In this document: piece by piece, positions 1,679 to 42,428 of the stretch
How the letters are laid out: every line of letters starts with the position of its first letter
Numbering within the stretch: position 1 is the first letter of the stretch
Origin: Eubacteriaceae bacterium
Lineage (GTDB): Bacteria; Bacillota; Clostridia; Lachnospirales; Lachnospiraceae
Length of the DNA stretch: 42,428 nucleotides
Direction of reading: 5' to 3'
Assembly (NCBI GenBank): GCA_910575665.1
Contig: CAJTFB010000033.1
Coordinates: 1-42,428 of the forward strand
Position numbers and translations under genes: made by a program
The notes under the pieces: model-generated
The model's database searches: none
Told to the model about the DNA's origin: nothing
What the model saw: only the letters and a program-made list of their open reading frames with translations

Positions 1679-1757
1679 AGGTTTCCCAACTTCCTATAAA
1701 TTTTCTCAGATTTTTCATGGTATAATTGCTTATTAGGCTTGTCCTCTCTCGCGATAG

Positions 1758-2683: not shown

Positions 2684-2714
2684 AAAAGGGCTTCCCGATT
2701 TCTCGGAAAGCCCC
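2684..2714 (-). terminator. Rho-independent terminator of tuf / str operon
   Basis: On the minus strand GGGCTTTCCGA and TCGGGAAGCCC form an 11-pair stem (with one G-T pair) around a short GAAA loop, followed directly by TTTTTG. It lies about 20 bases past the tuf stop and closes the str operon. Confidence 0.9.
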
Positions 2715-2736
2715 ATAAAATCTAGCTTTTTACTAA

Positions 2737-3924
2737 TTACTCGATGATAGTAGCCACACGACCTGAACCTACTGTACGTCCGCCCTCACGGATAGCGAAT
2801 GTAAGACCCTGATCCATAGCGATTGGGTGAATCAGCTCGATGGTCATCTCTACGTTATCACCAGGCATGCACATCTCTGTACCAGCTGGAAGCTCGATCA
2901 CACCAGTTACGTCCGTTGTACGGAAATAGAACTGTGGACGGTAGTTGTTGAAGAATGGAGTATGACGTCCACCCTCGTCCTTAGTCAGTACGTAAACCTG
3001 TGCTGTGAACTTTGTATGGCAGGTAAGGGAACCTGGCTGAGAAAGAACCTGTCCTCTCTCGATCTCGTTCTTCTGAACACCACGAAGAAGTACACCAGCA
3101 TTGTCTCCAGCCTGAGCCTCTTCCAGCTCTTTGTGGAACATCTCGATACCAGTTACAACAACCTTACGTGTCTCTTCTTTGATACCAACGATTTCTACTT
3201 CGTCATTGAGGTGAAGTGTACCAGCCTCTACACGTCCTGTAGCAACCGTACCACGTCCTGTAATAGAGAATACGTCCTCAACAGGCATTACAAATGGCTT
3301 ATCTGTGTCACGCTCTGGATCTGGAATATACTCATCAACTGTGCTCATGAGCTCCATGATAGCGTCGCCCCATTTGCTGCTTGGATCTTCCAATGCACCA
3401 AGTGCAGAACCTTTGATGATCGGACAATCTGTGAACTCATACTCCTCAAGGATCTCTGTGATCTCCATCTCTACCAGCTCAAGAAGCTCTTCGTCATCCA
3501 CCATATCACATTTGTTCATGAATACGATGATATAAGGAACACCTACCTGACGGGAAAGAAGGATATGCTCTTTTGTCTGAGCCATAACACCGTCAGTAGC
3601 AGCTACAACAAGGATCGCACCATCCATCTGTGCAGCACCAGTGATCATGTTCTTAACGTAGTCAGCATGTCCTGGGCAGTCAACGTGTGCGTAATGTCTG
3701 TTCTCTGTCTCATATTCAACGTGAGCTGTGGAAATTGTAATACCTCTTTCACGCTCTTCTGGAGCTTTATCAATATTTGCGAAATCTACAGCTGCGTTAC
3801 CCTCTACTCTTGCAGCAAGTGTAGCAGTGATCGCTGCTGTCAATGTTGTTTTACCATGGTCTACGTGACCAATTGTACCAATGTTACAATGTGGTTTCGA
3901 TCTTACATACTTTTCCTTAGCCAT
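2737..3924 (-). CDS. tuf: Elongation factor Tu
   Basis: GTPase that delivers aminoacyl-tRNA to the ribosomal A site in the cytoplasm. The 395-residue length matches the family. The P-loop GHVDHGKT is at residues 19-26, followed by the switch-[10 protein letters not shown] and the guanine-specificity NKCD, then the domain II and III beta-barrels. The start is the ATG at 3924 (MAKEKY), with AGGAGG ten bases upstream; an in-frame ATG seven codons earlier would place that site inside the gene. It is the last gene of the str operon, 205 bases after fusA, and has its own promoter in that gap. A strong terminator follows. Confidence 0.98.
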
Positions 3925-3994
3925 TTCTAAACGTCCTCCTAACATATTTTTTATTTTGTTTTAGAAATTTTGCTCTGATTGCCAATATGTCTCT

Positions 3995-4023
3995 ATTATA
4001 TGGGATATTTCCCAAAAAATCAA
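3995..4023 (-). promoter_or_regulatory. Sigma-A-type promoter for tuf
   Basis: On the minus strand TTGATT (4018-4023) and TATAAT (3995-4000) are separated by exactly 17 bases. Most of the spacer is the near-palindrome TGGGAAATATCCCA. It lies in the 205-base gap between fusA and tuf, about 70 bases upstream of the tuf start, and would allow extra EF-Tu expression over the rest of the operon. Confidence 0.7.
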
Positions 4024-4129
4024 TCCCTAATTCATAAAACTTATCGGCTTTCCTCTGTTAAATCCGCCTGATTCAACAAAATTTATTATACACGCGGTTC
4101 AGTATTGACTGCCCGCTTTCTCGTTGTAA

Positions 4130-6250
4130 CTATTTGTCCGTTTTCTGTGCAAGAACTTTGTCCTGTACATTTTTCGGACACTGTGCGTATTTCTCAAAGA
4201 ACATAGAGTAGTTACCACGTCCCTGAGTTGCCGAACGCAACTCCGTGGAGTAACCAAACATCTCTGCCAGAGGTACAAACGCGCGAACCAGCTTACCGCC
4301 GCCGATATCGTCCATACCTTCGATCTGTCCACGTTTCGCATTCAGGCTTCCGATTACATCACCCATGTATTCTTCTGGCATTGTAACTTCTACTTTCATA
4401 ATTGGCTCGAGAAGAACAGGATTACCTTTCTTCATTGCATCTTTGAATGCCATAGAACCAGCGATGTGGAATGCCATCTCACTGGAATCGACTTCATGGT
4501 AAGAACCATCCCATACATTCGCATATACACCAAGTACAGGGAATCCACCAAGAATACCAGCCTGTGCTGCTTCTTCGATACCCTCTCCGACAGCAGGGAT
4601 GTATTCTTTTGGAATCGCACCGCCGACTACCGTAGATTCAAACTTGAATGTTTCTTCGCCGTTTGGATCCATAGGCTCGAATTTAACTTTACAATGACCA
4701 TACTGTCCACGACCACCAGACTGTTTAGCATATTTGCTATCCACATCAACCGGTGTGGTAAAGGTTTCTTTGTAAGCAACCTGTGGAGCACCTACATTTG
4801 CTTCTACATTGAACTCACGTAGCAGACGATCCACGATAACCTCCAGATGAAGCTCACCCATACCAGCGATGATCGTCTGACCCGTCTCTGAATCTGTATG
4901 AGCACGGAAAGTAGGATCTTCTTCTGCAAGTTTTGCAAGCGCTTCACCCATCTTACCTTGGTCATTCTTTGTCTTAGGCTCGATCGCAAGCTCGATAACC
5001 GGCTCTGGGAATTCCATGGATTCCAGAATAACCGGATGCTGCTCGTCGCAGATCGTATCACCAGTGGTTGTCATTTTGAAACCAACTGCTGCTGCGATAT
5101 CACCAGAGTATACTTTATCAATTTCATTACGCTTGTTGGCATGCATCTGAACGATACGTCCAACACGCTCTTTCTTTCCTTTGGTCGCATTCAATACATA
5201 AGAACCGGAGTTCAATGTTCCGGAATACACACGGAAGAATGCCAGTTTACCAACGAATGGATCTGCCATGATCTTAAATGCCAGAGCAGAAAATGGCTCA
5301 TCGTCGGATGATTTACGAGTAATCTCGTTGCCCTCTTCATCTGTTCCCATAATGTCAGGAATATCGGTAGGAGCTGGCATATACTCGATAACGCCGTCCA
5401 GCATTTTCTGAACACCTTTATTTTTGTAAGCAGAACCACAGTATACAGGAACTGCCTCACAGGCGATCGTTCCTTTACGAAGGGCCTTCTTAAGCTCATC
5501 AACGGATGGCTCCTGGTCCTCCAGATACTGCATCATCAGATCATCATCCAGCTCACAGATCTTCTCTACAAGATTGCTGTGCCATTCATCAGCAAGATCC
5601 TTCAAATCATCTGGAATCTCTGTGATCTCAATATCTTCGCCTTTATCATCTTTGTAATAATATGCTTCCATCTCAAACAGATCGATCAAGCCCATAAAAT
5701 CGTCTTCTTTTCCGATCGGAATCTGAACAGGAATCGCATTTTTGCCCAGACGGTCAATGATCGTCTGCACCGAATAGAAAAAGTCTGCACCCATTTTATC
5801 CATCTTATTGATGAATGCCATACGTGGTACATTGTATGTGTCAGCCTGACGCCATACATTTTCGGACTGAGGCTCAACGCCGGCTTTCGCATCAAATACA
5901 CCGACAGCACCGTCCAAAACACGAAGAGAACGCTCTACTTCTACCGTAAAGTCTACGTGTCCAGGGGTGTCAATGATGTTGACACGATGCTCCAAAGCAC
6001 CTGGTTTTGCCTTGTGGTGATCTTCCAGTGTCCAGTGGCAGGTAGTAGCCGCAGAAGTAATGGTAATACCTCTTTCCTGCTCCTGCTCCATCCAGTCCAT
6101 TGTGGAAGCACCATCATGAGTCTCACCGATTTTATAATTGACGCCAGTATAATACAGAATACGCTCTGTAAGTGTTGTCTTACCAGCATCGATATGAGCC
6201 ATGATACCAATATTTCTGGTACGCTCTAATGGATATTCTCTTCCAGCCAA
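4130..6250 (-). CDS. fusA: Elongation factor G
   Basis: Ribosomal translocase GTPase. The 706-residue product has the P-loop AHIDAGKTT at about 17-25, the switch region [19 protein letters not shown], and NKMD. Domains II-V follow, including the C-terminal RGQIEGMD loop. The start is TTG at 6250, giving [19 protein letters not shown]. An exact AGGAGG sits eight bases upstream and no ATG lies in between, so a UUG initiation codon is used. It lies 102 bases after rpsG in the str operon. Confidence 0.97.
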
Positions 6251-27391: not shown

Positions 27392-27605
27392 CCGCATTAC
27401 CTTCTACTATTATTGGCTTATAACGTATCACACCACAATAAATTACCAATCATTTATCATTGTAACTACTTGAAATTAGTTTTATTCTAACACATAACTA
27501 CAAGTATTTGTACCTATTATTTTTCACTACCCTTTTTATTGGATTATGTTAAATCCACGTTAGCCCTCGTTTTTGAAATACAAACTTTTAAGATCTTCTT
27601 ATACA

Positions 27606-29591
27606 TACTTAATCCATGCTCCCCATGCGGGGAGCGACGCAGGTCTAGATATTTCTGACTTGTTTTTGGATGAATTTCAATCCACGCCCCCCATGCGGGG
27701 AGCGACCACAGATCGCCGACGCCATTACAGATTCATGCAATTTCAATCCACGCCCCCCATGCGGGGAGCGACCTGGGCTTTGTGTGGGATGTATATCTCG
27801 ATTGGGATTTCAATCCACGCCCCCCATGCGGGGAGCGACGCTTTTGCGTGCATACCCAGCCTTAACTTTATTGCATTTCAATCCACGCCCCCCATGCGGG
27901 GAGCGACACAATCAGCTGGAGAGACTTATCAGTACCAGCTGATTTCAATCCACGCCCCCCATGCGGGGAGCGACGACGTTGGGACGAGGGAAAATTACGA
28001 GAAATTTTGTATTTCAATCCACGCCCCCCATGCGGGGAGCGACTTTAACAGATTTACTTAACATTAACTTTTCAGGATGATTTCAATCCACGCCCCCCAT
28101 GCGGGGAGCGACTGGGTCGTCGCTTCTGTCGGATCGGAAAGGAGTAATTTCAATCCACGCCCCCCATGCGGGGAGCGACGGTGTCGTCCAGCAGGTTAAA
28201 GTGGATCCTTCCATTTCAATCCACGCCCCCCATGCGGGGAGCGACAATGCCACCAAAGACAGTAATTTACCCCCAGAGATAATTTCAATCCACGCCCCCC
28301 ATGCGGGGAGCGACCAGTTCAAAGGATAGTGCGGCGTCTTCGCAGACGTATTTCAATCCACGCCCCCCATGCGGGGAGCGACGGGATTTTGCAATAGCGC
28401 CATCCTTTTCTACCGATTTCAATCCACGCCCCCCATGCGGGGAGCGACTCCCGGACACAAAAGAGTACATCATATATACACCAATTTCAATCCACGCCCC
28501 CCATGCGGGGAGCGACGACACTGGAATAGATGTATATATCTACATGACAATTTCAATCCACGCCCCCCATGCGGGGAGCGACGGACTATCAAAAGATAGT
28601 GGCAGGGGGTGTTTAATTTCAATCCACGCCCCCCATGCGGGGAGCGACATTTAACGGAATATTCATAACGCCGGAAACAAGGATTTCAATCCACGCCCCC
28701 CATGCGGGGAGCGACATATTTTCGCACCGGAAAAGGCAGAGGATATAATAATTTCAATCCACGCCCCCCATGCGGGGAGCGACGATGCATTTTTGGATCT
28801 ATACAAATAAGGGCAGGTATTTCAATCCACGCCCCCCATGCGGGGAGCGACGGCTTTTTATCAACAGGCAGCTAATGAAACAGAGATTTCAATCCACGCC
28901 CCCCATGCGGGGAGCGACTCGAGTTTTGCATGGGGCGATGCGGACGAAATGAATTTCAATCCACGCCCCCCATGCGGGGAGCGACAGACAGTGGGGAAAA
29001 TGCCGATTAAATTCTACGGAATTTCAATCCACGCCCCCCATGCGGGGAGCGACGGCAACGACCCAGAACTAGTCTCTCAAATGCAGATTTCAATCCACGC
29101 CCCCCATGCGGGGAGCGACCGGCAAACTCTCGACCTCGTTTGTCGAAAAGAGTGATTTCAATCCACGCCCCCCATGCGGGGAGCGACGGCAAACTCTCGA
29201 CCTCGTTTGTCGAAAAGAGTGATTTCAATCCACGCCCCCCATGCGGGGAGCGACAAAAATCCTGATGCTGGTACTAAGCCTGGTGATGATTTCAATCCAC
29301 GCCCCCCATGCGGGGAGCGACTTTGTGTCCTGTGCGTTGTGATCAGCTTCATTTGTAATTTCAATCCACGCCCCCCATGCGGGGAGCGACAATTGCAGTT
29401 TAAACCAAAACATATCTTATCCAGTATTTCAATCCACGCCCCCCATGCGGGGAGCGACCGCGTCTGCTATGCCTCATATACGTAAAAGGCTTATTTCAAT
29501 CCACGCCCCCCATGCGGGGAGCGACGTATAATCAAGGCATTCCGGCTTTTAAAACTGTATTTCAATCCACGCCCCCCATGCGGGGAGCGAC
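27606..29591 (-). CRISPR. Type I-C CRISPR array, 30 repeats and 29 spacers
   Basis: Repeats are 33 bases. In the transcribed (minus) orientation they begin GTCGCTCCCCGC and end GGATTGAAAT, as in type I-C. Twenty-nine are identical. The leader-distal copy at 27606-27638 differs at about six positions. Spacers are 33-36 bases. Repeat starts advance by 66-69 bases from 27606 to 29559. Each repeat can fold into a CGCTCCC/GGGGGCG stem, where Cas5c would cut to leave an 11-base 5' handle. The leader is on the right, next to cas2, so the newest spacers are at the right end. Spacers at 29120-29154 and 29188-29221 are a tandem duplicate. Confidence 0.98.
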
Positions 29592-29990
29592 AGCAAAAAT
29601 TACATATTTGCAAACAAATATGTATTCTTATTTGTGCAAAATTACCAAAAATTTAAGTTTTCTTTACTCTTCTATGTTATATGCACTTCATTTTCCCTAA
29701 ATTTCATGGTGCGAACCTCTTAGGGATGCCATGTTCATTTAGATCTCGCACCATTGATATGATGCTGAGGATTGCTTCGTTGTTTCACACACCCCCGCAC
29801 CTCTACCTTTGTCAGTGCTATACAGACATTCAGCATTCTATAAGCTTTCAGAATTCGCTGATTTACTACGCAAACCGCTACTTCTTCATGATTAAACGGC
29901 TCTCACGATCAAATGCCTTATCATATTTTTTGTGCATGCTATAACACATTTAAGTTCATCTAACTCATTTTTTCATATATGTGCTTGGTA
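29592..29990 (-). promoter_or_regulatory. CRISPR leader
   Basis: The 399 bases between cas2 and the first repeat have no gene. The 100 bases next to the array are extremely AT-rich. A perfect 9-base inverted repeat with a 4-base loop (ACATATTTG/CAAATATGT, 29602-29623) lies only 10 bases from the first repeat. A second perfect 9-base inverted repeat (ATGGTGCGA/TCGCACCAT, 29706-29714 and 29746-29754) lies 115-163 bases from the array; a GGTGCGA...TCGCACC pair is, from memory, typical of type I-C leaders. The pre-crRNA promoter should be here, but I cannot choose a -35/-10 pair with confidence. Confidence 0.75.
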
Positions 29991-30290
29991 TCATACGATC
30001 AGTGTTCCCTCTGCTTCATAGGAGGCTTTCACACCAAAATGCTCAACCTTCCTTTGATATTTATTACCAAGATTATAGAACCGCAAACTATCTTGCTTGG
30101 GGTCAATCATTGATAGCAGCTTGTCCTTCACTATTAACAGCTGGGAAGAGTCCAAAACACATTCAAACACAGAATTCTGCACCCTCTGTCCATAGTTGAC
30201 ACATTCTTTAGCCACTTTTCTCAGCCGTTTACGTCCGGCAGCATCCTGTGTCGAAACATCATACGTAATCAGTATTAATATGAGAATCAC
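29991..30290 (-). CDS. cas2: CRISPR-associated endonuclease Cas2
   Basis: Partner of Cas1 in spacer acquisition. A 99-residue ferredoxin-like protein with the core strand LILITYDVST, the conserved RRLRKVAKxCxxYGxRVQxSVFEC stretch (here KRLRKVAKECVNYGQRVQNS) and the C-terminal NKYQRKVEHFG typical of type I-C. The start is a GTG at 30290 immediately after the cas1 stop codon, with no gap and with GGAAG inside the end of cas1, so the two are translationally coupled. It is the last gene before the leader and array. Confidence 0.95.
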   Translation of the reverse strand: MILILILITYDVSTQDAAGRKRLRKVAKECVNYGQRVQNSVFECVLDSSQLLIVKDKLLSMIDPKQDSLRFYNLGNKYQRKVEHFGVKASYEAEGTLIV

Positions 30291-31322
30291 CTACTTCCAT
30301 AAAAATGGTGGATATTCATCCAGGTCACCCCGGACCGTCCGCGCCAGCAGAAGCGCCTGTATATAAGGAACCAGTCCCCACTCCATCTTTTCTTTCAGAA
30401 AAGGATGGGTGATCGTCTCCTTTTTGCGGTTCTGCCAGGCATTAAAAAAGACTTTTCTTCCCTCTTCATTCAAAACAACTGCGTGATCCTGCTGGGTCTC
30501 AAAATGAGATGCCCGAAGCGCTTTTGTATTGATCAATGTCAGAACAAACCGGTCAGCCATGATCGGGCGCAGTTCCTCCATCAGATCCAGGGCCAGCGAA
30601 GTTCTTCCCGGTCTGTCACCATGCATAAATCCCACATATGGATCAAGACCAACGCTGTATAGAGAATTTGCACACTCGCCTGCCAAAATGGTATAGGCAA
30701 AGGATAAAACTGCATTTACATTGTCAAGAGGTGGTCTTCGATTTCTCCTTATAAATGTAAAATCCTCTTTTTGATTTAAAATCAGATCATTGAAAATTGA
30801 GAAATATTGTTCTGCTGCCTTTCCCTCTACCCCTCGCAGCTCATCCAGTGCGGACACCTTTTCTATTTTTCCCAGGGAATCATACAGCACACCTGAGATC
30901 CGGCGCAGTTTTTCCTCATCCACACGATAGGCATGATCCCGCAGAGTCCGCTCCACACTCCATCTGCCATTAAAGACTTTACCTAATATCATATTTTTAG
31001 CATAGGATACACCTCTGTCATGATCATCAGAAATACGATACTGTTCTTTTCTCAAAAGTACATTGCCATATTCTTTTCCCACTGTCCTGGCAAGAAACCT
31101 GCCTCTGGGAGAAAAGAAGCTCATTCCAATCTTTCTCTCCGCACATGCACCCATCAACGCCGGTGTTGCCCCTTTATAGGTGAAGCACACTACATTCTCC
31201 AGTGTGTGAAGAGGAAACCTGGCAAGAATATTTTCCCCGTTCTGTATTACAATATTTTCTCCGTCTAATGTCAGATAGCAGCTTTCTGTCATCACATATA
31301 ATGTATTTAATAATTTTCGCAT
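30291..31322 (-). CDS. cas1: CRISPR-associated integrase Cas1 (type I-C)
   Basis: Integrase that inserts new spacers at the leader end. The 343-residue length is standard. The metal-binding residues are present: Glu166 (GVEGKAA), His234 (GFMHGDRPGR) and the acidic LDLMEELRP segment (Asp246, Glu249/250). GGAGAG lies four bases before the ATG at 31322. It lies 76 bases after cas4 and is coupled to cas2. Confidence 0.97.
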   Translation of the reverse strand: MRKLLNTLYVMTESCYLTLDGENIVIQNGENILARFPLHTLENVVCFTYKGATPALMGACAERKIGMSFFSPRGRFLARTVGKEYGNVLLRKEQYRISDDHDRGVSYAKNMILGKVFNGRWSVERTLRDHAYRVDEEKLRRISGVLYDSLGKIEKVSALDELRGVEGKAAEQYFSIFNDLILNQKEDFTFIRRNRRPPLDNVNAVLSFAYTILAGECANSLYSVGLDPYVGFMHGDRPGRTSLALDLMEELRPIMADRFVLTLINTKALRASHFETQQDHAVVLNEEGRKVFFNAWQNRKKETITHPFLKEKMEWGLVPYIQALLLARTVRGDLDEYPPFLWK

Positions 31323-31398
31323 TTTGCTCTCCTGTATTCAGTTCTGGCGCAAATTTGAAACCTGTTTCGTCCTGCTCCGGCCAGACACCATCAGATAG

Positions 31399-32058
31399 TT
31401 AATCTCCCGTGTGAATATTCTGTCTGATATACTGTCCGACATCCATACTCTTTTGCAATTTGGGCAGACACAGATCTGCCAGGGAACATGACTTACACCG
31501 CTTTGAAGTCTTAACATTAGGGGTATGTCCCCTCTTGAACATCTCGTGCATCTTTTTCGCTGTTTCTTTTGTTGCACTTCGCAGATCTTCCGTAAATTCC
31601 ACCCTGCTTCTCCTTCTATTCATACCATAATACAAAGAGCCCCAGGATATGTTTGTCTGAAACATTTCTTCCAAACAGACCGCCTGCGCACAAAGCTGCA
31701 GTTCATCTGCATTATTTTCTTTGGGCGTACCATGTTTATACTCTATAGGTACAGGAGTCCATTTTCCATCATAGCCAAATAAGTCAATGCCCTTCTCGCT
31801 TTGATGAAACTCAACTACGTCACACTGTCCGCTCAGTCCCAGTTCATGGGAAGCAATGCGCAGTCCCCTGATGATCAGCAGATCCCCTCTCTTTTCAAAA
31901 GATCCCTCATCATGAGCCTTTTTGTGCATCAGTTCCCCAGCCGTTGTCTTGTAGTTCTCCGCCCATTGCTGCTCAATATGTATCAACGCCCATTGCCGCT
32001 GGCAGAAAGCAAAATGCTGAATACCTGAAAGCATTAAATAATCCTCTTCGGAATACAT
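31399..32058 (-). CDS. cas4: CRISPR-associated exonuclease Cas4
   Basis: RecB-like nuclease that trims prespacers and selects the PAM-bearing end for Cas1-Cas2. The 219 residues include the four iron-sulphur cysteines (Cys19, Cys188, Cys191, Cys197), the nuclease Asp80 (GQCDVVEF) and Glu106-x-Lys108 (PIEYKHG), and the QxxxY-like region in ELQLCAQAVCLEE. The ATG at 32058 starts two bases after the cas7 stop, with GAAGGG overlapping the end of cas7. Confidence 0.96.
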   Translation of the reverse strand: MYSEEDYLMLSGIQHFAFCQRQWALIHIEQQWAENYKTTAGELMHKKAHDEGSFEKRGDLLIIRGLRIASHELGLSGQCDVVEFHQSEKGIDLFGYDGKWTPVPIEYKHGTPKENNADELQLCAQAVCLEEMFQTNISWGSLYYGMNRRRSRVEFTEDLRSATKETAKKMHEMFKRGHTPNVKTSKRCKSCSLADLCLPKLQKSMDVGQYIRQNIHTGD

Positions 32059-32060
32059 AA

Positions 32061-32906
32061 CTAAATCCCTTCTATTTCTTCCAGCTCCAGATCAGGCAGC
32101 GATTCAATGATAATCTCATAATCCTCAAAACTCTTTGGATCATCCACTTTGGCTGTCACCTTCACCAGTCTGTGCACCTTTGCAGATGAATACTGTCCCA
32201 TCGGACAGTTGTGCTTCCACCAGTATACCCTGCACACTTCCATGCTGCCATCCGGTCTCGCCGAGGAGCTGTCATTTACAAACAGCGTCCGAAGCGCCTC
32301 TTTTATTTTCTCCGCATCCTCATCACTGAATCCTGTTTTTTCAGCCAGCTGATGATTAATACTTCCTTTAACGACATACAATGCAGAATGTACTTTGTGT
32401 TTCATTCCCATCGTGTCCGATGACTTTTTATCCTTTGTCTCACTATTGACACTTTTTGTGATCTGCATACTGTCAATAGCGACGGGCAGCACGCTAAAAG
32501 CAGAGTGCACTGACACCGGTCCCCGGACGCCGACGGATACATTGCCATCCTTAAATGCAAAAACCTGTCCAAAACTGCGCACATCGATCCAGGTCCTGCA
32601 GGCCGCCTTCGCATATGCCTCCCGGTCCTTATCCTTCTGTGCTTTCTGCATCTCCTCATTGCTCTTTGCCCGGTCTGAGAGGCTCTTACATTCATCGTCA
32701 GAACGCTCCTCACTCTGCACAAATATATTCTCGCCCATATCCTGCAGACGGTTTCTGATCTTGCGCTTAATGCACACGTCGGAGATCTCCCCATAGCCGT
32801 CATAGGTCTCCCGCGGCCGGTTGCCGTTCAACGGATCTCCATTCGGATTTGCATTTTGTACCATCACTAAAACTTCAAAATCAATTTTATTTGTAAATTC
32901 ACCCAT
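32061..32906 (-). CDS. cas7c: Cascade backbone protein Cas7 (Csd2), type I-C
   Basis: RAMP protein forming the filament that holds the crRNA spacer. The 281 residues include FEVLVMVQNANPNGDPLNGNRPRE at the N-terminus, IKRKIRNRLQDMG, the RSFGQVFAFK and VRGPVSVHSAFSV core, and a C-terminal LPDLELEEIEGI. AAAGGAGAG sits a few bases before the ATG. It lies 21 bases downstream of cas8c. Confidence 0.96.
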   Translation of the reverse strand: MGEFTNKIDFEVLVMVQNANPNGDPLNGNRPRETYDGYGEISDVCIKRKIRNRLQDMGENIFVQSEERSDDECKSLSDRAKSNEEMQKAQKDKDREAYAKAACRTWIDVRSFGQVFAFKDGNVSVGVRGPVSVHSAFSVLPVAIDSMQITKSVNSETKDKKSSDTMGMKHKVHSALYVVKGSINHQLAEKTGFSDEDAEKIKEALRTLFVNDSSSARPDGSMEVCRVYWWKHNCPMGQYSSAKVHRLVKVTAKVDDPKSFEDYEIIIESLPDLELEEIEGI

Positions 32907-32927
32907 TTTATCTCTCCTTTTCTGAAC

Positions 32928-34859
32928 TTATTGTTTTTCCTGTTCTTTTTTCTGAAATGCCTGTTTCATGTACTCTGTCTGCAGGTAATATGCCGGCAGG
33001 TACATTTCCGACAAAGGCTTATTGTCAAATCCGGCTCCCGCAAGATGCACCATGATCTCTTCCGTCCACTCTTCAAATTTTTTTAATTGATAACCATTTA
33101 ACTTCTTCTCGTATGGCATCATATTCTGTTTTATGGTTTGAAAGGTTTTGGCGGGTCTGCTGCTGAACGCATTCCAGTAACGTCTTGCATTCGTTGTACG
33201 CCCTTCTTTTACTTTGCCATCTTCGTCCCGCTCGAACATGGCACGCTGCTCCATAAGATCATATACAGCTAACAGCCTCCCAAACAAAACATTTCGGTCC
33301 TTTACATTGTCCTCCAGAAATTTATCCATAGTACTGCCTCCCTTCTCGTAATTAAACCGGATCATTGCACACGCAACACATAACACATCGTTATACCATA
33401 CAAACGGATTCATAGACTGCGGCATGGACGCTCTCCTTGCCGCTGCCCTGACAATGTCTAAGGGGATCTTTCTGCCCTTTCCTGTAATGTATGGAAGCAA
33501 CCGATTTGTGACAGCCCGGATCAGCTTACTATCTGCTTCCAGCCAGTTTGACCTCTGTGTGCCAAAGGCAGCCAGCGCCATGTCACGGGGTGACGGTGAA
33601 CACTCGCATGAGATGTTCTTTTTAACGCCATCCGTTTTTTCCACTGTTATATAACGGCGCCATTTACAATGTTCCTGCCAGTATAACAAAGCATCCATAT
33701 ACTGTTTACCGCCCATTTCATCATAATAGCAGATCGACAGCCTTCCCGTCGTCGCCGCATCCAGTGCGATCACCGCAATATGGTCATCCACTTTGATTTT
33801 TCCGGCATATCCCCGCACTGCAAGATTAAATTGTTCCGCAAAATATTTTCCGGTATCCTGTTTATTTTTGTTCTCTGCCTCCATGTCATCCAGTATGTCA
33901 AAATCAAACTCAAAATCATCCAGATCCTCATAGGCATGTATAGAATCTTTCATCATGTCGGGAACTGACATATCCCGGTTTGACATCCAGCAGACCAGCG
34001 CTGAACCATCTCGCGTATATCCCTGTTTCTGGATCAGCCATTTCAAAGCGTTATGAGCCTTTTGTGACACCACATATCCGACAGAAACCGCCTGGTTTTT
34101 CGAGGCAAATCTGCCCCGGTAAGTAAATCCCGATTCGTCATTTCCCGAGATCAGCTTTGCCTTATCACCGCTGTTGCGTATCTTGGAAGGATGTTTCTCC
34201 GAACAGGTGCCCATCTCTCCAGATACATAGCATAGCTCCGTCTGCCCCGCCTTCTTCTGGTAATACCTGTCATATGTCTCATACAATTCCTGATTTTCCC
34301 ATACGCGGGGCGTGTCATTTCCATAGACGATAAACCTTACATTGGCGCCGGTCTGCCCGGAACCCTGCAATTTTACATTGTCCGTAAGCCTTCCGCCTTC
34401 ATTCAGCTCCAGTGTATGATCCTGGATCAGATCATAGATCAGCGATTTCTTCTTTAGATATTTCCATATCGTCTGCACCATAGGGTGCGTATTCTCGGAT
34501 TCCGCCCAGTCCTGCAGCTGCTCCATATACGCCTCGTAATATTCTTTTTTCTTCTGATCTCCCGTATATAACGCGTAGTCCCCCGCCACGTAGCAAAGTT
34601 TATCACATAACGGGTGTGGTGCAATTCCACTGCTTCTCGCCGCGGAATCCTCTGTTACCGGGATTATTGTGACGATATCTGGTCCCTTATCAAGCTTTTT
34701 CGAACCTAGGAAATTCCCCTCCTCATCCAGCGTCACTTCGATCTGGGCGTTAAAGGTAGAATGGGAAAGGGGCAGCAGCACAGGCTGGTCGTTTTTTATC
34801 ACCCCTGCCAGTTCCGAATAGACATCATATGTATCAGCCAAGGTCTTTAACCATGCCAA
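32928..34859 (-). CDS. cas8c: Cascade large subunit Cas8c (Csd1)
   Basis: Large subunit of the type I-C effector, expected to recognise the PAM; in this subtype an internal start in cas8c often also makes the small subunit Cas11. The 643-residue product is placed from the TTG at 34859 ([17 protein letters not shown]). A GGGAGGTGG site lies about seven bases upstream, and the family begins with a similar xWLxxLxxTYD. The start overlaps the cas5c 3' end by 26 bases. Longer in-frame starts exist (ATG 34883 and others further up) but fit the family N-terminus less well. The protein has the usual [16 protein letters not shown] and later [12 protein letters not shown] segments. Confidence 0.93.
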
Positions 34860-35580
34860 AGGCACCACCTCCCTCAAATTCATCTGACCCCGAAAAATTT
34901 TTTCCAGGCACAAAGAGTTTTTGCTTTTCACTGCGCAGGATACGCCGGATCTCACATTCTTCGGGCCTGGGAAAATGAATGATGCCCTTTTCCATCTGTG
35001 CATTCCACAGACGCACCGTCATTTTTCCCTTCTCTTCCTCCCGCACAGCTTCATCCGGGTAGGTAATACCATGAACCATAATGCCAAAAGAGAGGTTTGT
35101 CTCATCATATTCCCCCTTCCCCTCATCCAAGGGACAGGGCTCTACATATCCCTGGCACTCCCTGGCCCCCAGAAAGATATCCCTTCTTCCGCCCCTCTCA
35201 AGCATTCTCCGGGCGATGTCATAATGTTTGTTCTCGTTCCTGTCATGGGCTAAGTCCGGCCGGTTCTCATTCCACTCAAAATGTGCCCTTACCCGGTACT
35301 CCACATCCCGCAAATAAGTATAAAGGGACAAATCATTTCCTCCACTGTATTTGATGGGGCGGATTCCTTTGGACTCCGTCTGGATATACTTCATAATTCG
35401 GCATTCGTCAATGACCCATGTGATCGTCGGCTTCCAATAGATAGATTCTGTAATTCCCTTGAGCGCCTGGTAGGTAGGTATCTGGTAACTACATTTTTCC
35501 CCGCCCGTCTTGGACAGGGGATCTGTAAACAAGGCATATCTTCCAAATACGGTGTACTCGATTATATTCGGTTTTTCCAC
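34834..35580 (-). CDS. cas5c: Cas5c (Cas5d), crRNA-processing ribonuclease
   Basis: In type I-C, Cas5 replaces Cas6 and cuts the pre-crRNA repeat. The 248-residue product starts at the GTG at 35580 ([21 protein letters not shown]). AGGAGGAG lies six bases upstream; the frame is open 25 codons further up to an ATG that lacks any site. Catalytic candidates match the Bacillus halodurans enzyme layout: Tyr32 in [13 protein letters not shown], and Lys118-His119 in [13 protein letters not shown] glycine-rich GGGAF ends the protein. It begins 82 bases after cas3 and overlaps cas8c at its end. Confidence 0.95.
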
Positions 35581-35662
35581 TCTGTACTCCTCCTCTCGTG
35601 AAATTTCATAATTTACTTGATGTTGGGGCAAAAACCCTTTTGACCCTGGCATCATTTATTTA

Positions 35663-38107
35663 TTAAAAAATAAGTGGTTCCCATTCCGCGGTGATCCCCC
35701 GCTCTTCTGTGTAAGCTCCGGGAGCTGCCACCATATATAATCCGGGGATATCCTCGCTGACACGCTGAATGAGCCCATCAAATTTCTTGAACTGGTTCTC
35801 TCTCACATTTACCGTATACCTCTGCGCCTGTCGTATACACTCTTTTATTTCTGCCGGATCCGGGGACTGACGGATGGCCTCCAGGATGTTATTCCCATCT
35901 TTGTATGGCACGATCACGCCAAAGGAATGATCGTCAATCACCCGGTATTCCCGTCCGGCTGTTTTGTATGCCTGGTTCATAAAGTTCTTTTTCTCCATAC
36001 AGGAAAAACCATTAGATAAAAGTTCCATAATACTCGTATCCATATGTCTTATCGGAAAGTTCATCCTATCTTCGGAATCCAAATACAACTTTTTAAAATA
36101 CTGATCCATCCATGCTGGTGTCAACAGGCTCTCGCCACTGCCGCTTTTCCGGTAATCGTAAAGAATCTGCTCCGTGACATCAGTATTCCGCAGTAATTCT
36201 TCCATATTTCCGGTATTCTCACCTTCAAGCTGGATCAGTTTCAGGACCCCATATTTCATCTCACCATTTCTGTTACACCGCCCGGCGCTCTGGGCCAGGC
36301 TGTCAAGTCCGGTCATGGATCGGTATACACATTCAAAGGAAATATCCACTCCCGCCTCTATGAGATTCGTACTGACGACGATAACTCTCTCCTGTTCCTT
36401 CCTGAGTTTTTTCTTTACGGCTTCGATCTTGTCACTTCGGTGTTCCGCACATAGATTCGTTGTAAGATATTCCACATGTACAGGAAATTCTTTCAATATA
36501 TCATACAATTTTCCTACCGCTGATTTTGTATTTAATATCACCAGAATGGAGCGGTACCTGTCTAACTGACATTTGATCTCATCCCCAAGACGGTCAAAGG
36601 TATATTTCTGCCCAGGTTCAGGAATATGTATTTTCACCCGTTCAAACCGGGTAAACCAGGCCGTCGCATCCTTTATCATATACTTAGGTTCACTATAACA
36701 CACAGGGTACACCGCATCTCCCAGCGCCGGCTGTGTCGCTGTGCACAAGATAATATCTGCGTTGCACACTGCATTCAGGAAATTAACCATCTGATTAAAT
36801 GTGTGGACGCATTTGACGGGCATAGACTGAACCTCATCGATAATGATCACCGAATTCACCAGCCTGTGCATACGCCGTATGGACCTGCTCTGATCGGAAA
36901 AAAGCGTGTTCATAAACTGCACAAAGGTGGTACATATAAAAGGCTCCTCCCAATTTATATCCTGTTGTGCAAACCGGTTTTTGCGGTAATCTTCCTGCTG
37001 GTAATCCCTATCGCCATTGACCGTATCTTTGATCACGGAAGAATGATGTTCCAGTATCCACTCATCCTGCCCGATGGCCTCCCGGAACACTTTAGCATTC
37101 TGTTCTGTGATACTTATATATGGAGACACATAAATAATACGCTCTGTCTCAGGATGCCGCCTGCAGTACTCCAGGGCATATGCCAGGCTGCTCAGGGTTT
37201 TTCCTCCCCCTGTTGGAATCGGCAGACAATAGATCCCCGCCGGATACTTTGCAAATTCTCTACACTCCTTCTGTAATTGGTCTCTTCCCTCCATGATCTC
37301 TCTTTCTCTGTCCGTCAGATCAGAAAGGCGGATAGAACGGTGTTTTTCCTGCATATACGCCTCAAAATTCTCTCCGGCTTTCGCAAATATTTTTCTATGG
37401 TCCGTATCATTGCGCTTTGACAACGTGTCCACATCATTCATAAAATCCGTGGTGGCTTCCCAATCCGCATCGATTAAAACGGATAACAATAACCGCTGCT
37501 GAGAGGCAAACAAAAAAGACCGGCAGTCGGATAATATTTTTCTTTTCTTTCGTTTGTCCTTTTCTAATAATAGAGGTGTTGTCATCTCAACTACTCGCTT
37601 CATCTTATCCCACAGCAGATCAAATTCCTTTTCCGAATTTGCAAAAACCTTTTCTAGTTCATACTGTCGGATATAATCACGTTCTGCATTACGGCAGGCT
37701 TCCTCATAATCTTCCACTTCACTTAACTTCTTAGAAAATATATCTAACCGCTCTTCATTTACACAGTCAAATAAGCCATGATGGGCAGCCACCGCATAGG
37801 TGACCAATTCTTTTAAAACGTTTACTTTTCTAGAACTCTCATGGTTCCTGTCATAAATATATTTTGCTCCGGTGGAAGCATGTCCGATCTTTCCCCGCAG
37901 CTTTTTTCTTTCCCACTCATCCGCATGAATATAATCATCAAATTTCTGTTTATTTTTTCCCATATCATGGAGTATTCCACATAAGGACATGATCTGTGAA
38001 ATCCCACATCTTTTTCCCTTTTCTCTGCAAAAGTAAACGGTTTTTTCCGTATGCTCTGCGACGGATTCTTCTCTGCCAGATCCATCTTCTGAAATATGTG
38101 CTGTCAA
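35663..38107 (-). CDS. cas3: CRISPR-associated helicase-nuclease Cas3 (type I-C)
   Basis: Degrades DNA marked by the Cascade complex. The 814 residues have an N-terminal HD nuclease (His19, His47-Asp48 in ILHDMGK, His76, His109-His110 in AAHHG, and IDADWEAT), then a superfamily-2 helicase. The helicase has Walker A PIPTGGGKT (Gly300-Lys303), the DEVQ box at 424-427, CTATQP, and motif VI QSAGRCNRNGE near 620. All are intact. The start is TTG at 38107 with AGGGAGAGGG seven bases upstream; no ATG fits. It is the first gene of the operon. Its promoter must lie within the preceding 150 bases, where I see only weak candidates. Confidence 0.97.
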   Translation of the reverse strand: MTAHISEDGSGREESVAEHTEKTVYFCREKGKRCGISQIMSLCGILHDMGKNKQKFDDYIHADEWERKKLRGKIGHASTGAKYIYDRNHESSRKVNVLKELVTYAVAAHHGLFDCVNEERLDIFSKKLSEVEDYEEACRNAERDYIRQYELEKVFANSEKEFDLLWDKMKRVVEMTTPLLLEKDKRKKRKILSDCRSFLFASQQRLLLSVLIDADWEATTDFMNDVDTLSKRNDTDHRKIFAKAGENFEAYMQEKHRSIRLSDLTDREREIMEGRDQLQKECREFAKYPAGIYCLPIPTGGGKTLSSLAYALEYCRRHPETERIIYVSPYISITEQNAKVFREAIGQDEWILEHHSSVIKDTVNGDRDYQQEDYRKNRFAQQDINWEEPFICTTFVQFMNTLFSDQSRSIRRMHRLVNSVIIIDEVQSMPVKCVHTFNQMVNFLNAVCNADIILCTATQPALGDAVYPVCYSEPKYMIKDATAWFTRFERVKIHIPEPGQKYTFDRLGDEIKCQLDRYRSILVILNTKSAVGKLYDILKEFPVHVEYLTTNLCAEHRSDKIEAVKKKLRKEQERVIVVSTNLIEAGVDISFECVYRSMTGLDSLAQSAGRCNRNGEMKYGVLKLIQLEGENTGNMEELLRNTDVTEQILYDYRKSGSGESLLTPAWMDQYFKKLYLDSEDRMNFPIRHMDTSIMELLSNGFSCMEKKNFMNQAYKTAGREYRVIDDHSFGVIVPYKDGNNILEAIRQSPDPAEIKECIRQAQRYTVNVRENQFKKFDGLIQRVSEDIPGLYMVAAPGAYTEERGITAEWEPLIF

Positions 38108-38376: not shown

Positions 38377-39948
38377 TTACTTTTTATATCTATCTTTCAA
38401 AAAAAGCAAGAAATCCTCATTTTTTTTGGTACATAGCGTTTTGATTTTTTTGATCTTATACTTTTTATCAATTTCATTAAGCATTACATGTTCAATATTC
38501 CTACCTAGAGCCCTGCATGACAAACAACACAAATCTAATTCAGCAGCTTCCTCCCTACCATACACTCCTACGACACCAACTATGCCTAAATCGCAAAATT
38601 TATCTGTTACATTCGTGATATATAATCTATACAAAGGATCTTTTAATCTTTCTTTAAGTTTTTCCACAGTATATCTGGATCCATTCGTTCTCTTATTTGT
38701 TCTAAGTGACAATTCAGAAGCCCTATAATAATCAGAATCATTTGCCATTCTAACTTCAATTTTCATTTCTAGCGAATTTAAATATTCTTCATAACTTTTG
38801 GATAATGATAATAATCTCTCTCTCTGTTTATCCGTTTTATATGTTTCATTTCTTAGGCTAACACTGCATGTATCAACTTCTCTCATCAAATTGAAACAAT
38901 TTAATTCACCAAAGATTGTCATTTTATTAAATAGTATCGTTTTCACCTCCGGTAACATTTCATTTACCAAATTTATTTCAAAGATAGAATCATCTATAAA
39001 AACCATACTATTCAAAGAAATGTTTAGTTCATTGGCAATTTGCAATATATTATCCGCTTTATTTTCCCAATTTACTTTAATACATGCAAAATGATTTAAT
39101 CTTAAAATCATGGCACTATGAGTATTAAATACAGACTTCACATCCTCAATATCATTTTTGCTTACAATCGATAATATAACGCCATGATTATATAGTTGTA
39201 ATATAATCCGTTGAAAATCTTGATAAATTTTCCCTACCCCTATATTTCCAAGTTTAATATTCTCAATACCCTCTTCCGATAAAACGCCTCCCCATAACAC
39301 ATTATCGCAATCTAAAATAACACACTTCGGTGTGTTATGATTCATTATTTTATATTGCTTCGCTATTTCTGATGCAATTTGACAAAACACATTTTTATTA
39401 TAGATACACGACCAACTATATTTATATTTCAAATTATATGCCTTCGTTTCCCCGACCTTTGAAATGATTTTTTCTAGATTTATCATTACATCTCTATCTT
39501 GAAGAGCATGGGCCAATCTATAATTCAAATTATATTTTATATTAGATCCACTGACAACATTACCATATAAAATAGATAAATCCTCTTCATAAGAATCAAA
39601 ACCTATCCATATTACTGGAATATTACAGCCCACTTTAAACTTATTATAAAATAGAATTAACTCATTAAATATTGCATCTTCTCTTTCAATACGATAACTA
39701 ATATTGCTGCTATAATCTGATAAATTTAACCATAAAATCGCGAGGTCATAGTCTTTTACCTTTTCAATACCTTCCTCATTAAAAACATTATATTGTATAT
39801 AAAAAGTTTCAAGAAAAATGCCGTTTTCTCCAAACTTTTCCTTTAATTCATCATCTAAAAAATGTTCCACGGTAAAATCAGATACCACTAATATTCTTTT
39901 TGTCTTTTTCTTACTCTCTGTACTACTTATTCCCATGTTATCCTTCAT
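38377..39948 (-). CDS. FkbH-like HAD-IIIC family protein
   Basis: FkbH-type enzymes dephosphorylate 1,3-bisphosphoglycerate and load a glyceryl group on the arm of an acyl carrier protein, for tetronate or methoxymalonyl-type units. The 523 residues have an N-terminal SGNH-like part (about 15-170, ILVVSDF). The HAD core follows, with nucleophile motif DCDNVLWGG (Asp213, Asp215), SKND at 263-266, Lys297, and FIDDS at 317-321. The GNAT-like C-terminus typical of the family comes last (TNKRTNGSRYTVEKL). ATG 39948 is listed; ATG 39936 with AAGGA just upstream is an alternative. It is the last gene of the operon, about 10-20 bases after the carrier protein gene. Confidence 0.85.
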   Translation of the reverse strand: MKDNMGISSTESKKKTKRILVVSDFTVEHFLDDELKEKFGENGIFLETFYIQYNVFNEEGIEKVKDYDLAILWLNLSDYSSNISYRIEREDAIFNELILFYNKFKVGCNIPVIWIGFDSYEEDLSILYGNVVSGSNIKYNLNYRLAHALQDRDVMINLEKIISKVGETKAYNLKYKYSWSCIYNKNVFCQIASEIAKQYKIMNHNTPKCVILDCDNVLWGGVLSEEGIENIKLGNIGVGKIYQDFQRIILQLYNHGVILSIVSKNDIEDVKSVFNTHSAMILRLNHFACIKVNWENKADNILQIANELNISLNSMVFIDDSIFEINLVNEMLPEVKTILFNKMTIFGELNCFNLMREVDTCSVSLRNETYKTDKQRERLLSLSKSYEEYLNSLEMKIEVRMANDSDYYRASELSLRTNKRTNGSRYTVEKLKERLKDPLYRLYITNVTDKFCDLGIVGVVGVYGREEAAELDLCCLSCRALGRNIEHVMLNEIDKKYKIKKIKTLCTKKNEDFLLFLKDRYKK

Positions 39949-39958
39949 CCTTGACTTT

Positions 39959-40210
39959 CTACTTCGATTGATTATATATATACTCGGTCAAATCACCTAT
40001 CGTCTCTAAATAGTTCAAAGAAAGGTCGTCGTCAATCAAATCAACTTTGTATTTATCAAAACACCAATCTACCAAAGTAATGACAGAAAGCGACCCAATT
40101 ACACCTCCTTCACCCAATAATGGAGTAGAATGTGAAAAGTCAATCTTATCCCCATTTTTGATCTCGCGCAACTTACTACAAATATCTAAAAAAATCTCTT
40201 CTTTGCTCAT
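39959..40210 (-). CDS. Acyl carrier protein
   Basis: An 83-residue stand-alone carrier protein from ATG 40210 (MSKEEIFLDICSKLREI), with GAGGTG a few bases upstream. An ATG ten codons earlier has no site. The four-helix ACP pattern is visible, with LLGEGGVIGSLSVITLVDW around the expected phosphopantetheine serine (Ser40). The usual DSL reads GSL, an unusual loss of the conserved aspartate before the serine. It lies between the GNAT and FkbH-like genes and is probably the carrier loaded by the latter. Confidence 0.75.
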   Translation of the reverse strand: MSKEEIFLDICSKLREIKNGDKIDFSHSTPLLGEGGVIGSLSVITLVDWCFDKYKVDLIDDDLSLNYLETIGDLTEYIYNQSK

Positions 40211-40255
40211 TCTACACCTCGCATAAATTTGTGCATTCATATGACTTCTCGAAAC

Positions 40256-40705
40256 CTATTCCAAAGTCAGCTCCATCGTAATATGTTTTGATTCAAACCC
40301 ATTCGCTTTATATACAGAGCGCATTGCAATATTGTTTATGTTCACTTTTCCAACTATATATTTGGCATTAATACTTTTCGCATAATCAATTCCTTTACTC
40401 AACAATTCACTTGAACATTCCGTTTCTCTATATTGATCATCTATATAAAAACTTCTAAAATTAATGTAAATATCCTCCGTTAAAAAGTTCGTCTTTCGGT
40501 CCATCCATAACCAACCAATTATTTTGTTTTCTTCCACTGCCACAAGCATACCAGATTTATCTTTTTTATATGCTTTTTCTATTCTTCTTATATGAGTATC
40601 AATATCCGTTATCGCCTCTTCTTGGTATGAAATAATAGCAATTTCACGTTCCATCTCTGCAACACTTAAAAAATCTTCTTCCTGTAACAATCGTATATTA
40701 TACAT
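40256..40705 (-). CDS. GNAT-family acetyltransferase
   Basis: A 149-residue GCN5-related acyltransferase. Core strands are LVAVEENKIIGWLWM, a shortened FYIDDQYRETECSSELLSKGIDYAKS acetyl-CoA loop (R/Q-x-x-G/A motif degenerate), and MRSVYKANGFESKHITMEL. The acceptor is unknown; given its operon neighbours it could acylate a polyamine or release an acyl group from the carrier protein. AGAGGT is about seven bases before ATG 40705. It lies 39 bases after the BpsA-SpeD gene. Confidence 0.8.
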   Translation of the reverse strand: MYNIRLLQEEDFLSVAEMEREIAIISYQEEAITDIDTHIRRIEKAYKKDKSGMLVAVEENKIIGWLWMDRKTNFLTEDIYINFRSFYIDDQYRETECSSELLSKGIDYAKSINAKYIVGKVNINNIAMRSVYKANGFESKHITMELTLE

Positions 40706-40744: not shown

Positions 40745-42292
40745 TTATAATTTATTTAACAATCCTCGAGAAATATCATTGTATTCCATTTTTTTGCAGC
40801 CGAGCTTTTCTTCTAAATATTGCATTGCACTTCTTAAATCCAGGGTATCGCCACACGTAAACAAATCTACAGCAGCATACTTATATTCTGGCCACGTATG
40901 AATTGTCAAATGTGATTCCTTGATGATAATGACTCCGCTAACCCCCCAGGGACTAAATGTGTGAAACTTTTCAGATACTATTGTTGCATTCGCCTTTTCC
41001 GCTGCTTCATGCATATATTGCTGGATTAATTCATTGTCCTTTAGTATTGATTCCGTACACCCATAAAAATCTGCTAGAATATGTTCGCTTAATGATCTTT
41101 TTTCTCGCTCTAATAAAAATGATGGCTGTTTCTTGCGTAAATCAAATACTTTATTTCCACAATTTGGACAGCCCTCCTTTTTTAACTGCTCGATTGTACG
41201 AATCCTACTATTATGATCTAAGATTATTTTTTCCTTACATTTTTTGCACTCATATACACTGCTTTTTTGCCGTAATTCTCCTGTATAAATCTTATCTAAA
41301 TATTTGCACTCCTCAGGAACTATTGTTTTTATATCTTCACCACTTTGCAAAACCATCATTTGGCTAACATTTGCCAATAGTGAAGCTCCTTCATATTCGT
41401 TGAATGCATTATAAATATCTGTTATGGCAAATCCGAGATTTAAGATAACTTCTTGAACCTTTTTCATCTCATCAATAGGTTTATGCCCATAAGAAAGAAA
41501 TACTCGTAAACCTTTTTCATTTTTCAGGGCACTTACTCCTCTCGATAAGAATAGGGACAATCCTTCTGTCGTATACGGTGGATCTGTAAAAAAACAATCA
41601 AAACTGTTGGCATAACTTATTGGCAACGGTTCTCTTAAATCTATTTTCAAACATTCGATTGGTAAATTATATCGTTCAGCAAGCACAATTATATATTGTA
41701 TATAACGTTCATCGACATCAAACACGCATACCTTTTTTCTATTCGCCTCTTTATCGTAATACAACTCATTTAGCAATAAACCAATGGCAACACTAATTAA
41801 ATCATCATCTCCTACACATAATATGTTTTTTCCGATTAATGATTGATTCTCCAAACACAACATAGCTCGTCTAAAAGCTGTGTTCACCGTACATTTGGCT
41901 TGGTCTATTGTCACATCAACTTGTGGTCTATTTTCATAAATAAAAGCATATTGTTCGGATAATTTAGTAATTAAATCAATTCTCTGCTTTTCATCATCAA
42001 GCAATGTCTTATATAACTCAATATCCAAACCGAAAAATCCCAATTCATGATCAACAAAGTCTACACCCTGTTTTGTTAGCTGTATTCCCTTGTTTTGCTC
42101 TAAAATTCCTACACGAATAAATTCTTTCTTTATCGCAGTAACGACTGGTATAGGTAATGTGCATCGAAATGCTAATTCCTTATTGGATATATTTCCTTCA
42201 AAATATATTATAGATAAAATTTTTTCTAATACGCTTCTTCCTTCTTTTAACCTGACACGTTCCTTTACTATTCCGATATAATCCTCTTTCAT
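40745..42292 (-). CDS. Fusion of branched-chain polyamine synthase (BpsA), zinc ribbon and S-adenosylmethionine decarboxylase (SpeD)
   Basis: A 515-residue two-enzyme protein. Residues 1-90 form a winged helix typical of BpsA (DUF43). About 125-320 is its aminopropyltransferase Rossmann domain with GDDDLISVAIG (161-170) and FFTDPPYTTEGLSLFLSRG (234-252). A zinc ribbon follows (Cys349, Cys352, Cys375, Cys378). Residues 400-510 are a complete prokaryotic SpeD proenzyme. Its cleavage pair Glu459-Ser460 gives the pyruvoyl group, and His465 and Cys480 keep the same spacing as Ser63, His68 and Cys83 of the Thermotoga enzyme. The SpeD half makes decarboxylated SAM; the BpsA half would add aminopropyl groups to a polyamine. 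The ribosome binding site is weak (AAGGCGG). Confidence 0.9.
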   Translation of the reverse strand: MKEDYIGIVKERVRLKEGRSVLEKILSIIYFEGNISNKELAFRCTLPIPVVTAIKKEFIRVGILEQNKGIQLTKQGVDFVDHELGFFGLDIELYKTLLDDEKQRIDLITKLSEQYAFIYENRPQVDVTIDQAKCTVNTAFRRAMLCLENQSLIGKNILCVGDDDLISVAIGLLLNELYYDKEANRKKVCVFDVDERYIQYIIVLAERYNLPIECLKIDLREPLPISYANSFDCFFTDPPYTTEGLSLFLSRGVSALKNEKGLRVFLSYGHKPIDEMKKVQEVILNLGFAITDIYNAFNEYEGASLLANVSQMMVLQSGEDIKTIVPEECKYLDKIYTGELRQKSSVYECKKCKEKIILDHNSRIRTIEQLKKEGCPNCGNKVFDLRKKQPSFLLEREKRSLSEHILADFYGCTESILKDNELIQQYMHEAAEKANATIVSEKFHTFSPWGVSGVIIIKESHLTIHTWPEYKYAAVDLFTCGDTLDLRSAMQYLEEKLGCKKMEYNDISRGLLNKL

Positions 42293-42428
42293 TCTTATAA
42301 TCCGCCTTTCCGCTTCGCGAAAGCCACCGATGGGGTCATGAAACCTTAGTTTCTCTCGCTTCGCTCGTTTCTATTTTCTTTACCTCTTGATATAATCTTT
42401 TTATAAGACTGACACACTACAGAACACG
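42293..42428 (-). promoter_or_regulatory. Leader of the polyamine operon at the right edge
   Basis: No gene is seen. On the minus strand CTTTCGC-GAA-GCGGAAAG can fold into a hairpin 12-29 bases before the BpsA-SpeD start, overlapping the weak ribosome binding site AAGGCGG. A clear promoter is not seen, so the operon's start may lie outside the window. Confidence 0.35.

Follow-up and report, generated by a model that had tools for sequence, protein, structure and literature searches.

The question raised by this locus is what a gut-type bacterium would do with a single gene that joins an enzyme making an aminopropyl donor to one of a family that uses it. The window, by which we mean the whole 42,428-nucleotide stretch of DNA that was analyzed, is one complete contig, and the gene lies close to its end, with about 135 nt between the contig end and the start codon. 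An earlier note on this DNA had placed a BpsA-zinc ribbon-SpeD fusion at 40745..42292. The coordinates hold, with the amendment that the gene is on the minus strand, where the frame is open end to end from an ATG over 515 aa, the plus-strand frame of the same interval being riddled with stops. Pfam matches to both halves bear out the claim that donor-making (SpeD) and donor-using (BpsA-type) domains share one ORF, and the gut-type host proposed at the same time looks right in view of the nearest named relatives, which are uncultured Roseburia and Lachnoclostridium MAGs.

All parts of the protein are encoded on the minus strand. Residues 1-110, at the N-terminus of the BpsA half (41963..42292), align with the N-terminal part of the T. 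kodakarensis enzyme (Tk-BpsA), and a MarR-like Pfam match found there is non-significant (E 0.08). The BpsA_C catalytic domain (residues 111-327; 41312..41962) passes PF01861 with an E value of 5.9e-49 and 166.9 bits against a gathering score of 27, and in a phmmer search of the PDB residues 6-302 align with Tk-BpsA (5xnc). The BpsA-type motifs are intact, as had been noted, with GDDD at 161-164 and DPPYT at 237-241; H270 and Y300 occupy further key positions. Between the halves lies the predicted zinc-ribbon-like stretch (residues 347-380; 41153..41254), recognized from the sequence pattern C349xxC352...C375xxC378, for which the Pfam scan of the window protein returned no model above cut-off.

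The SpeD part, an AdoMet decarboxylase proenzyme (residues 399-515; 40748..41098), was found to be as complete as first described: PF02675 (AdoMet_dc; residues 404-510, E 2.7e-42) and TIGR03330 both score above their cut-offs, residues 398-511 align with T. maritima SpeD (1tlu/1vr7) in the phmmer search, and the cleavage site E459|S460 is followed by H465 and C480, which we take to be the catalytic His and Cys. S460, predicted to be the serine that forms the pyruvoyl group, has its codon at 40913..40915. The cleaved form of T. maritima SpeD (3iwb) has two chains, of which chain B aligns with residues 399-459 of the fusion and chain A with 461-511; since the two chains align on either side of the cut site, maturation should yield a 459-aa chain (BpsA, ribbon and SpeD beta) and a 56-aa chain. 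Thus the description of a single-chain protein is right for the ORF, whereas a lasting single chain would not be expected if this SpeD matures like its relatives.

The BpsA half was compared residue by residue in 87 clade sequences and three canonical relatives, with Tk numbering mapped from the alignments. GDDD, DPP, the equivalents of Asp225 and Tyr290, and YT336-337 are invariant in all 87, and the glutamate of the canonical DPPET motif is replaced by Tyr in every one of them. At the position of the acceptor-activating Tk Glu259, which is Glu in 3/3 canonical relatives, the clade has His in 80 sequences, Asn in 5, and Lys and Gln in 1 each (n = 87), H270 being the residue in the window protein. 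The roles of GDDD, Asp225, Tyr290 and Glu259 in BpsA are given in the available portion of PMC12979288, which also names an acidic C-terminal cluster as the aminopropyl carrier of Tk-BpsA. A DDEE-type acidic tail of this kind is absent from the window protein, where the ribbon takes its place; an acidic residue at 339, E339 in the window protein, is conserved in 86/87 and might stand in for the carrier cluster. The alignment around Tyr316 is not secure. Judged by these residues, the BpsA half is a distinct, divergent branch, BpsA-like rather than an established EC 2.5.1.128 enzyme. The branched products foreseen in the earlier note are in line with the PF01861 match, but they become uncertain because the Glu259 equivalent is mostly His and the acidic carrier cluster is missing. 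The four-Cys ribbon is present in 83/87 sequences, the misses being two copies cut by contig ends together with L014 and L051, which lack a ribbon; since unfused relatives carry the pattern too, the idea that the ribbon is a linker created by the fusion was rejected.

Frameshift, assembly error or chimera as the source of the fusion, and with them the possibility of two separate genes, could be excluded, since a copy 94% identical to that of the window is present in a second, sister MAG (G017) and less closely related full fusions occur in L061, L062, L064, L065 and MT839461.1. Altogether eight fused genes were found, one of them cut by a contig end; their sources are Lachnospiraceae, further Clostridia, Bacteroidota and a record from human faeces. 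In a maximum-likelihood tree of the BpsA part, built from 43 rows chosen among those fetched and including the cut L060 and MT839461.1, the eight form one clade with 98/97 support, and a quick 90-row tree united seven of them with a support of 99. Lachnospiraceae, other Clostridia and Dysgonomonas-type Bacteroidota occur intermingled in this clade, whose taxonomic span suggests one fusion event that may have been followed by horizontal transfer. In a tree of the SpeD half, the fused SpeDs neither formed one supported clade nor was one clade rejected. The GNAT tree was poorly resolved, included the GNAT of L061 in the wrong frame, and was left unused.

Within the genus, the fusion occurs in 3/39 genomes, one copy being cut by a contig end, and 4/39 match any part of it; the fusion is thus an accessory gene in the genus. 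The copy in G021 (91% identity) is cut before SpeD and was counted as fused on that identity. A class-wide scan found PF01861 above cut-off in 12/391 genomes, our own included, and the open frames of the other 11 measure 198-405 aa, so none is fused. A BpsA-only scan of named genomes gave 480 matching stretches; 347 of these were relatives, and 80 were retained. Among these 80 loci, SpeD is fused in five (L059, L061, L062, L064 and L065), L060 being cut before a possible SpeD, and is directly adjacent to BpsA in nine, as judged by tblastn of the neighbourhoods; 47 have neither a GNAT-FkbH pair nor a linked SpeD, a number that includes L060 and the loci with a GNAT remnant (L087, L095 and L110). 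With regard to mobile DNA, a scan of viral contigs for phage cargo gave no relative, and 25 plasmid records matched, none over 80% of the query; among the 15 matches listed, 14 were on the SpeD side. The full fusion in MT839461.1, an unverified 4269-bp record from human faeces labelled 'Bacteriophage sp.', lies at 1606-3273, and part of a cassette GNAT, sharing 47% identity with that of the window, lies at 3992-4255; by eye, the record also contains an AraC-like regulator, and no phage genes were recognized.

A functional clue comes from spermidine synthase. We surveyed SpeE with TIGR00417 in 39 genomes, comprising 16 in which BpsA and SpeD are fused or adjacent, 21 in which they are unlinked (a chosen subset of those scored without SpeD beside BpsA), G195, and one canonical genome. 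SpeE scored above cut-off in 0/7 fused genomes (G021 included), in 1/9 with an adjacent SpeD (L098, whose genome has both), and in 20/21 unlinked genomes; it was missing from G195, which has a SpeD gene in the same orientation 3.1 kb further on, and present in the canonical genome. The genome of L138 has a SpeE-like protein of 161 bits, below the cut-off, and L135, counted as unlinked, has SpeD 3.8 kb away. The only unlinked genome lacking SpeE, G062, is 73% complete, and a contig end truncates its BpsA. Fisher's test of SpeE against SpeD linkage gives p 2.6e-8, uncorrected for kinship; without G021, G062 and G169, in which the copy stops at a contig end or no more than ~200 nt short of one, the figures are 1/15 against 19/19 (p 1.1e-8). 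Independent contrasts on well-supported branches number only 3-4 and are for that reason not significant, with means of 2.6/3 or 3.6/4 in the expected direction. On these counts the fusion looks like a self-contained substitute for the SpeD and SpeE pair.

The polyamine genes of our own genome were also considered. No NspC match at E<=0.001 was found there, while 1/14 control genomes passes the NspC cut-off; a 29-bit nspC match, against a cut-off of 409 bits, falls in a diaminopimelate-decarboxylase relative. The only PF01564 match is a 540-aa MFS_SpdSyn-type protein, and PF01564 matches occur in 30/39 congeners, many of them of similar length. The simplest reading is that the fusion would be the sole dcSAM-dependent aminopropyltransferase of this genome, where PF01276 decarboxylase-family proteins are a possible source of diamine. 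A different solution exists in the same genus, in congener G003, whose polyamine aminopropyltransferase is of the membrane type (PRK03612) and has a SpeD nearby (L016, 2898-6378).

Three matters went unremarked in the earlier note: the GNAT-ACP-FkbH operon, the lack of SpeE and the wider family. In the window, the fusion gene is followed on the same minus strand by a GNAT N-acyltransferase (149 aa; 40256..40705; PF00583; 43-46% identity with the GNATs that adjoin three unfused BpsA genes), an acyl carrier protein-like gene (ACP; 39959..40240; 93 aa, or 83 aa with the start used in G017) identified from weak NCBIfam ACP matches and the alignment of cassette ACPs, and an FkbH/HAD-IIIC protein (523 aa; 38377..39948; TIGR01686 and HAD and SCR motifs), after which comes a CRISPR-Cas locus. 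G017 has the identical four-gene order ahead of cas genes, with a gene for a surface-type protein upstream, an arrangement that suggests an operon of four genes. By eye, the G021 fusion gene lies downstream of Rnf-like genes, so its genomic place varies. The homology of the window copy to G017 and G021 starts 1-4 nt ahead of the ATG, and the ~135 nt upstream (42294-42428) have no match to the upstream DNA of either; this stretch may be an insertion or a chimeric contig end, and expression of the window copy, which lacks the upstream DNA common to its relatives, is uncertain. A promoter scan performed at chance level (25 found against 26.7 expected) and none is claimed, and an Rfam riboswitch scan of nine other loci, among them the relatives L010 and L012, returned one tRNA only.

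The same cassette recurs beside BpsA in distant families. By tblastn, GNAT and FkbH adjoin BpsA, after it and always on the same strand, in 21 of the 80 loci, and an ACP is present in 20 of these (19 by tblastn and L061 by hand; L116 ends within FkbH); the remaining 59 loci lack the GNAT-FkbH pair, some of them being cut by contig ends. In three of the 11 unfused genomes of the class-wide scan (G195, G094 and G387), separate BpsA, GNAT, FkbH and ACP genes stand side by side. The GNAT type is rare, found at E<=1e-10 in 1/398 genomes of the phylum, namely our own, and between families it is about as conserved (43-46% identity) as BpsA (39-47%). Its best PDB relatives are uncharacterized proteins, and among its 15 weak relatives there 5 carry names as polyamine, diamine or spermidine acetyltransferases. 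The window ACP has no Pfam match at E<=1; its homologue in L100 passes PF00550, and the phosphopantetheine Ser motif is present in 20/20 cassette ACPs. The FkbH protein scores 238.3 bits with TIGR01686 (cut-off 146.65), and the DxD HAD motif and a conserved Cys in the SCR motif, which presumably holds the glyceryl-carrying Cys, are found in 23/23.

The association of GNAT and FkbH with BpsA on one strand in 21/80 loci suggests that the aminopropylated amine may be acylated from (glyceryl-)ACP. FkbH and ACP are held to form glyceryl-ACP in tetronate pathways in the part of PMC7489565 consulted, and a portion of PMC10099666 describes FkbH domains as the route by which glycerate enters vioprolide and, in a proposal, corramycin. 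On these grounds, our preferred reading is that the GNAT would move an ACP-bound acyl group to the amine and give an N-glyceroyl polyamine. No match to the cassette GNAT at E<=1e-6 exists in three of the fused genomes (L062, L064 and L065), so acylation would be at most an optional add-on. Seven Paenibacillus loci (L079, L080, L100, L104, L109, L117 and L129) have a ~2160-aa FkbH-domain protein upstream of the BpsA-GNAT-FkbH cassette, and in L100, the member scanned, this large protein reads KS-AT-PP-condensation-FkbH; a polyamine-tailed natural product is possible at these loci. In the window and 15 other cassette loci, no ORF in the stretches read is longer than 865 aa, so these 16 have no neighbour of PKS or NRPS size. 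Nine loci have a gene of one family close to BpsA and on its strand, with MutS domain V in L135, the member scanned (L090, L092, L095, L105, L108, L119, L134, L135 and L137).

Taken together, the best explanation, to which we give a probability of roughly one half, is a self-contained aminopropylating enzyme that replaces SpeD and SpeE and whose product would be acylated by the operon. From the domains, the key residues, the operon and its recurrence and the absence of SpeE, which are read directly from the DNA, we infer the acceptor, the acyl group, the order of the steps and every catalytic step, those of the fusion and of the cassette proteins alike. The SpeD part would cut itself at E459|S460 and yield decarboxylated SAM (dcSAM), with which the attached BpsA-type domain would aminopropylate an amine, probably a diamine and alternatively imported spermidine, so that in fused genomes the fusion could substitute for a separate SpeD and SpeE pair. 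In the window operon, FkbH would take glyceryl from a phosphoglycerate of glycolysis and load it onto the ACP, from which the GNAT would shift it to an amino group to give an N-glyceroyl or similar acyl polyamine. The wider proposal of an undescribed polyamine pathway, in which a BpsA-type enzyme with its own source of dcSAM supplants spermidine synthase and, in many Bacillota, a conserved BpsA-GNAT-FkbH-ACP cassette makes N-glyceroyl (ACP-acylated) polyamines from its product, is more tentative, falling short of even odds; such polyamines would be a class of metabolite for which we know of no precedent.

The fusion could instead be a true branched-chain polyamine synthase that aminopropylates N4 of spermidine, imported or otherwise made, like the enzymes of Thermococcus and Thermus, with GNAT, ACP and FkbH as co-regulated neighbours only. 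The PF01861 match and the conservation in 87/87 of the GDDD, Asp225 and Tyr290 equivalents, whose known roles are taken from the same portion of PMC12979288, speak for such an enzyme, but it is nevertheless unlikely, roughly a one-in-four matter, given that none of the 87 sequences has Glu at the Glu259 position (His, Asn, Lys or Gln instead), that the DDEE-type tail is absent, that our own genome has no above-cut-off SpeE or NspC match to supply spermidine, and that the cassette recurs by BpsA in distant families. We hold it still less probable that the cassette serves acetylation or another pathway, the GNAT acetylating polyamines in the manner of SpeG or PaiA and FkbH-ACP feeding a separate metabolite. 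The weak resemblance of the GNAT to acetyltransferases that act on spermidine and diamines speaks for this, and the large upstream protein of the Paenibacillus loci would fit a separate metabolite, whereas no PKS- or NRPS-sized gene adjoins the cassette in the window and the 15 other loci.

Least credible of all is that the BpsA-like half is a SAM methyltransferase and SpeD a regulator or relic, which we regard as very improbable. The BpsA family has a methyltransferase-like fold, PDB entry 2qm3 bears the title 'Predicted methyltransferase', and weak PF10237 matches occur in 7/45 sequences scanned, yet a better match to an unrelated methyltransferase, the finding that would have told against the BpsA assignment, was not obtained: the best in the window protein, PF10237 at 1.8e-4, is below cut-off and trails PF01861 by ~44 orders of magnitude. 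Moreover, SpeD is fused or directly adjacent in 14/80 loci, the catalytic motifs are kept in the fusions, and the linkage goes with the absence of SpeE.

The self-contained aminopropylating enzyme that we favour is a new combination of known parts, and the fusion is real. It resembles BpsA (EC 2.5.1.128; T. kodakarensis 5xnc, Thermus) in PF01861, GDDD, the Asp225 and Tyr290 equivalents and the alignment over 6-302, and differs from it in being fused to SpeD, in the change of the DPPET Glu to Tyr and of Glu259 to His, in the ribbon that replaces the acidic tail, and in its gut-type host, branched polyamines being predominantly a thermophile trait in the available portion of PMC12979288. The AdoMetDC-aminopropyltransferase fusion of Ca. 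Pelagibacter, shown to be functional (PMC11107197, in part), and human spermine synthase, which joins an AdoMetDC-type to a transferase domain (PMC11999265, in part), likewise have both domain types in one ORF; in these described fusions, however, the AdoMetDC is N-terminal and the partner a SpeE-type transferase, the reverse of the C-terminal SpeD and BpsA-type (PF01861) partner of the window. The SpeD part itself is like T. maritima SpeD (1tlu, 3iwb) in its cleavage site, His, Cys and full-length match, and unlike it in being the C-terminal part of a fusion. The tetronate and methoxymalonate systems with FkbH and a stand-alone ACP (PMC7489565, as far as available) share TIGR01686, the HAD and SCR motifs and an adjoining ACP, whereas the window operon has no dehydrogenase, FabH or PKS and has a GNAT and an aminopropyltransferase. 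A search of open-access full text, a scope outside which most subscription papers and all bioRxiv preprints lie, found no BpsA-SpeD fusion and no BpsA-FkbH-GNAT cassette.

The interest of the locus lies in the apparent replacement of SpeE and in the recurring acylation cassette. If this reading is true, the chemistry of the branched-polyamine enzyme family extends past thermophiles, and a BpsA-type enzyme can replace spermidine synthase, so that gut bacteria scored as SpeE-negative could still make polyamines; the GNAT-FkbH-ACP cassette would likewise predict a new type of acyl-polyamine that could be searched for by mass in cultured strains. Elsewhere in our own genome, a diaminopimelate/ornithine-type decarboxylase gene was seen by eye together with ACP-like and ligase-like genes (C12; L149, 5550-12001). 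The CRISPR-Cas locus directly downstream of the operon (27591-38107), which we take to be of type I-C, contains cas3, cas5d, csd1, cas7, cas4, cas1 and cas2 and an array of 30 repeat copies, and G017 has similar cas genes after the operon.
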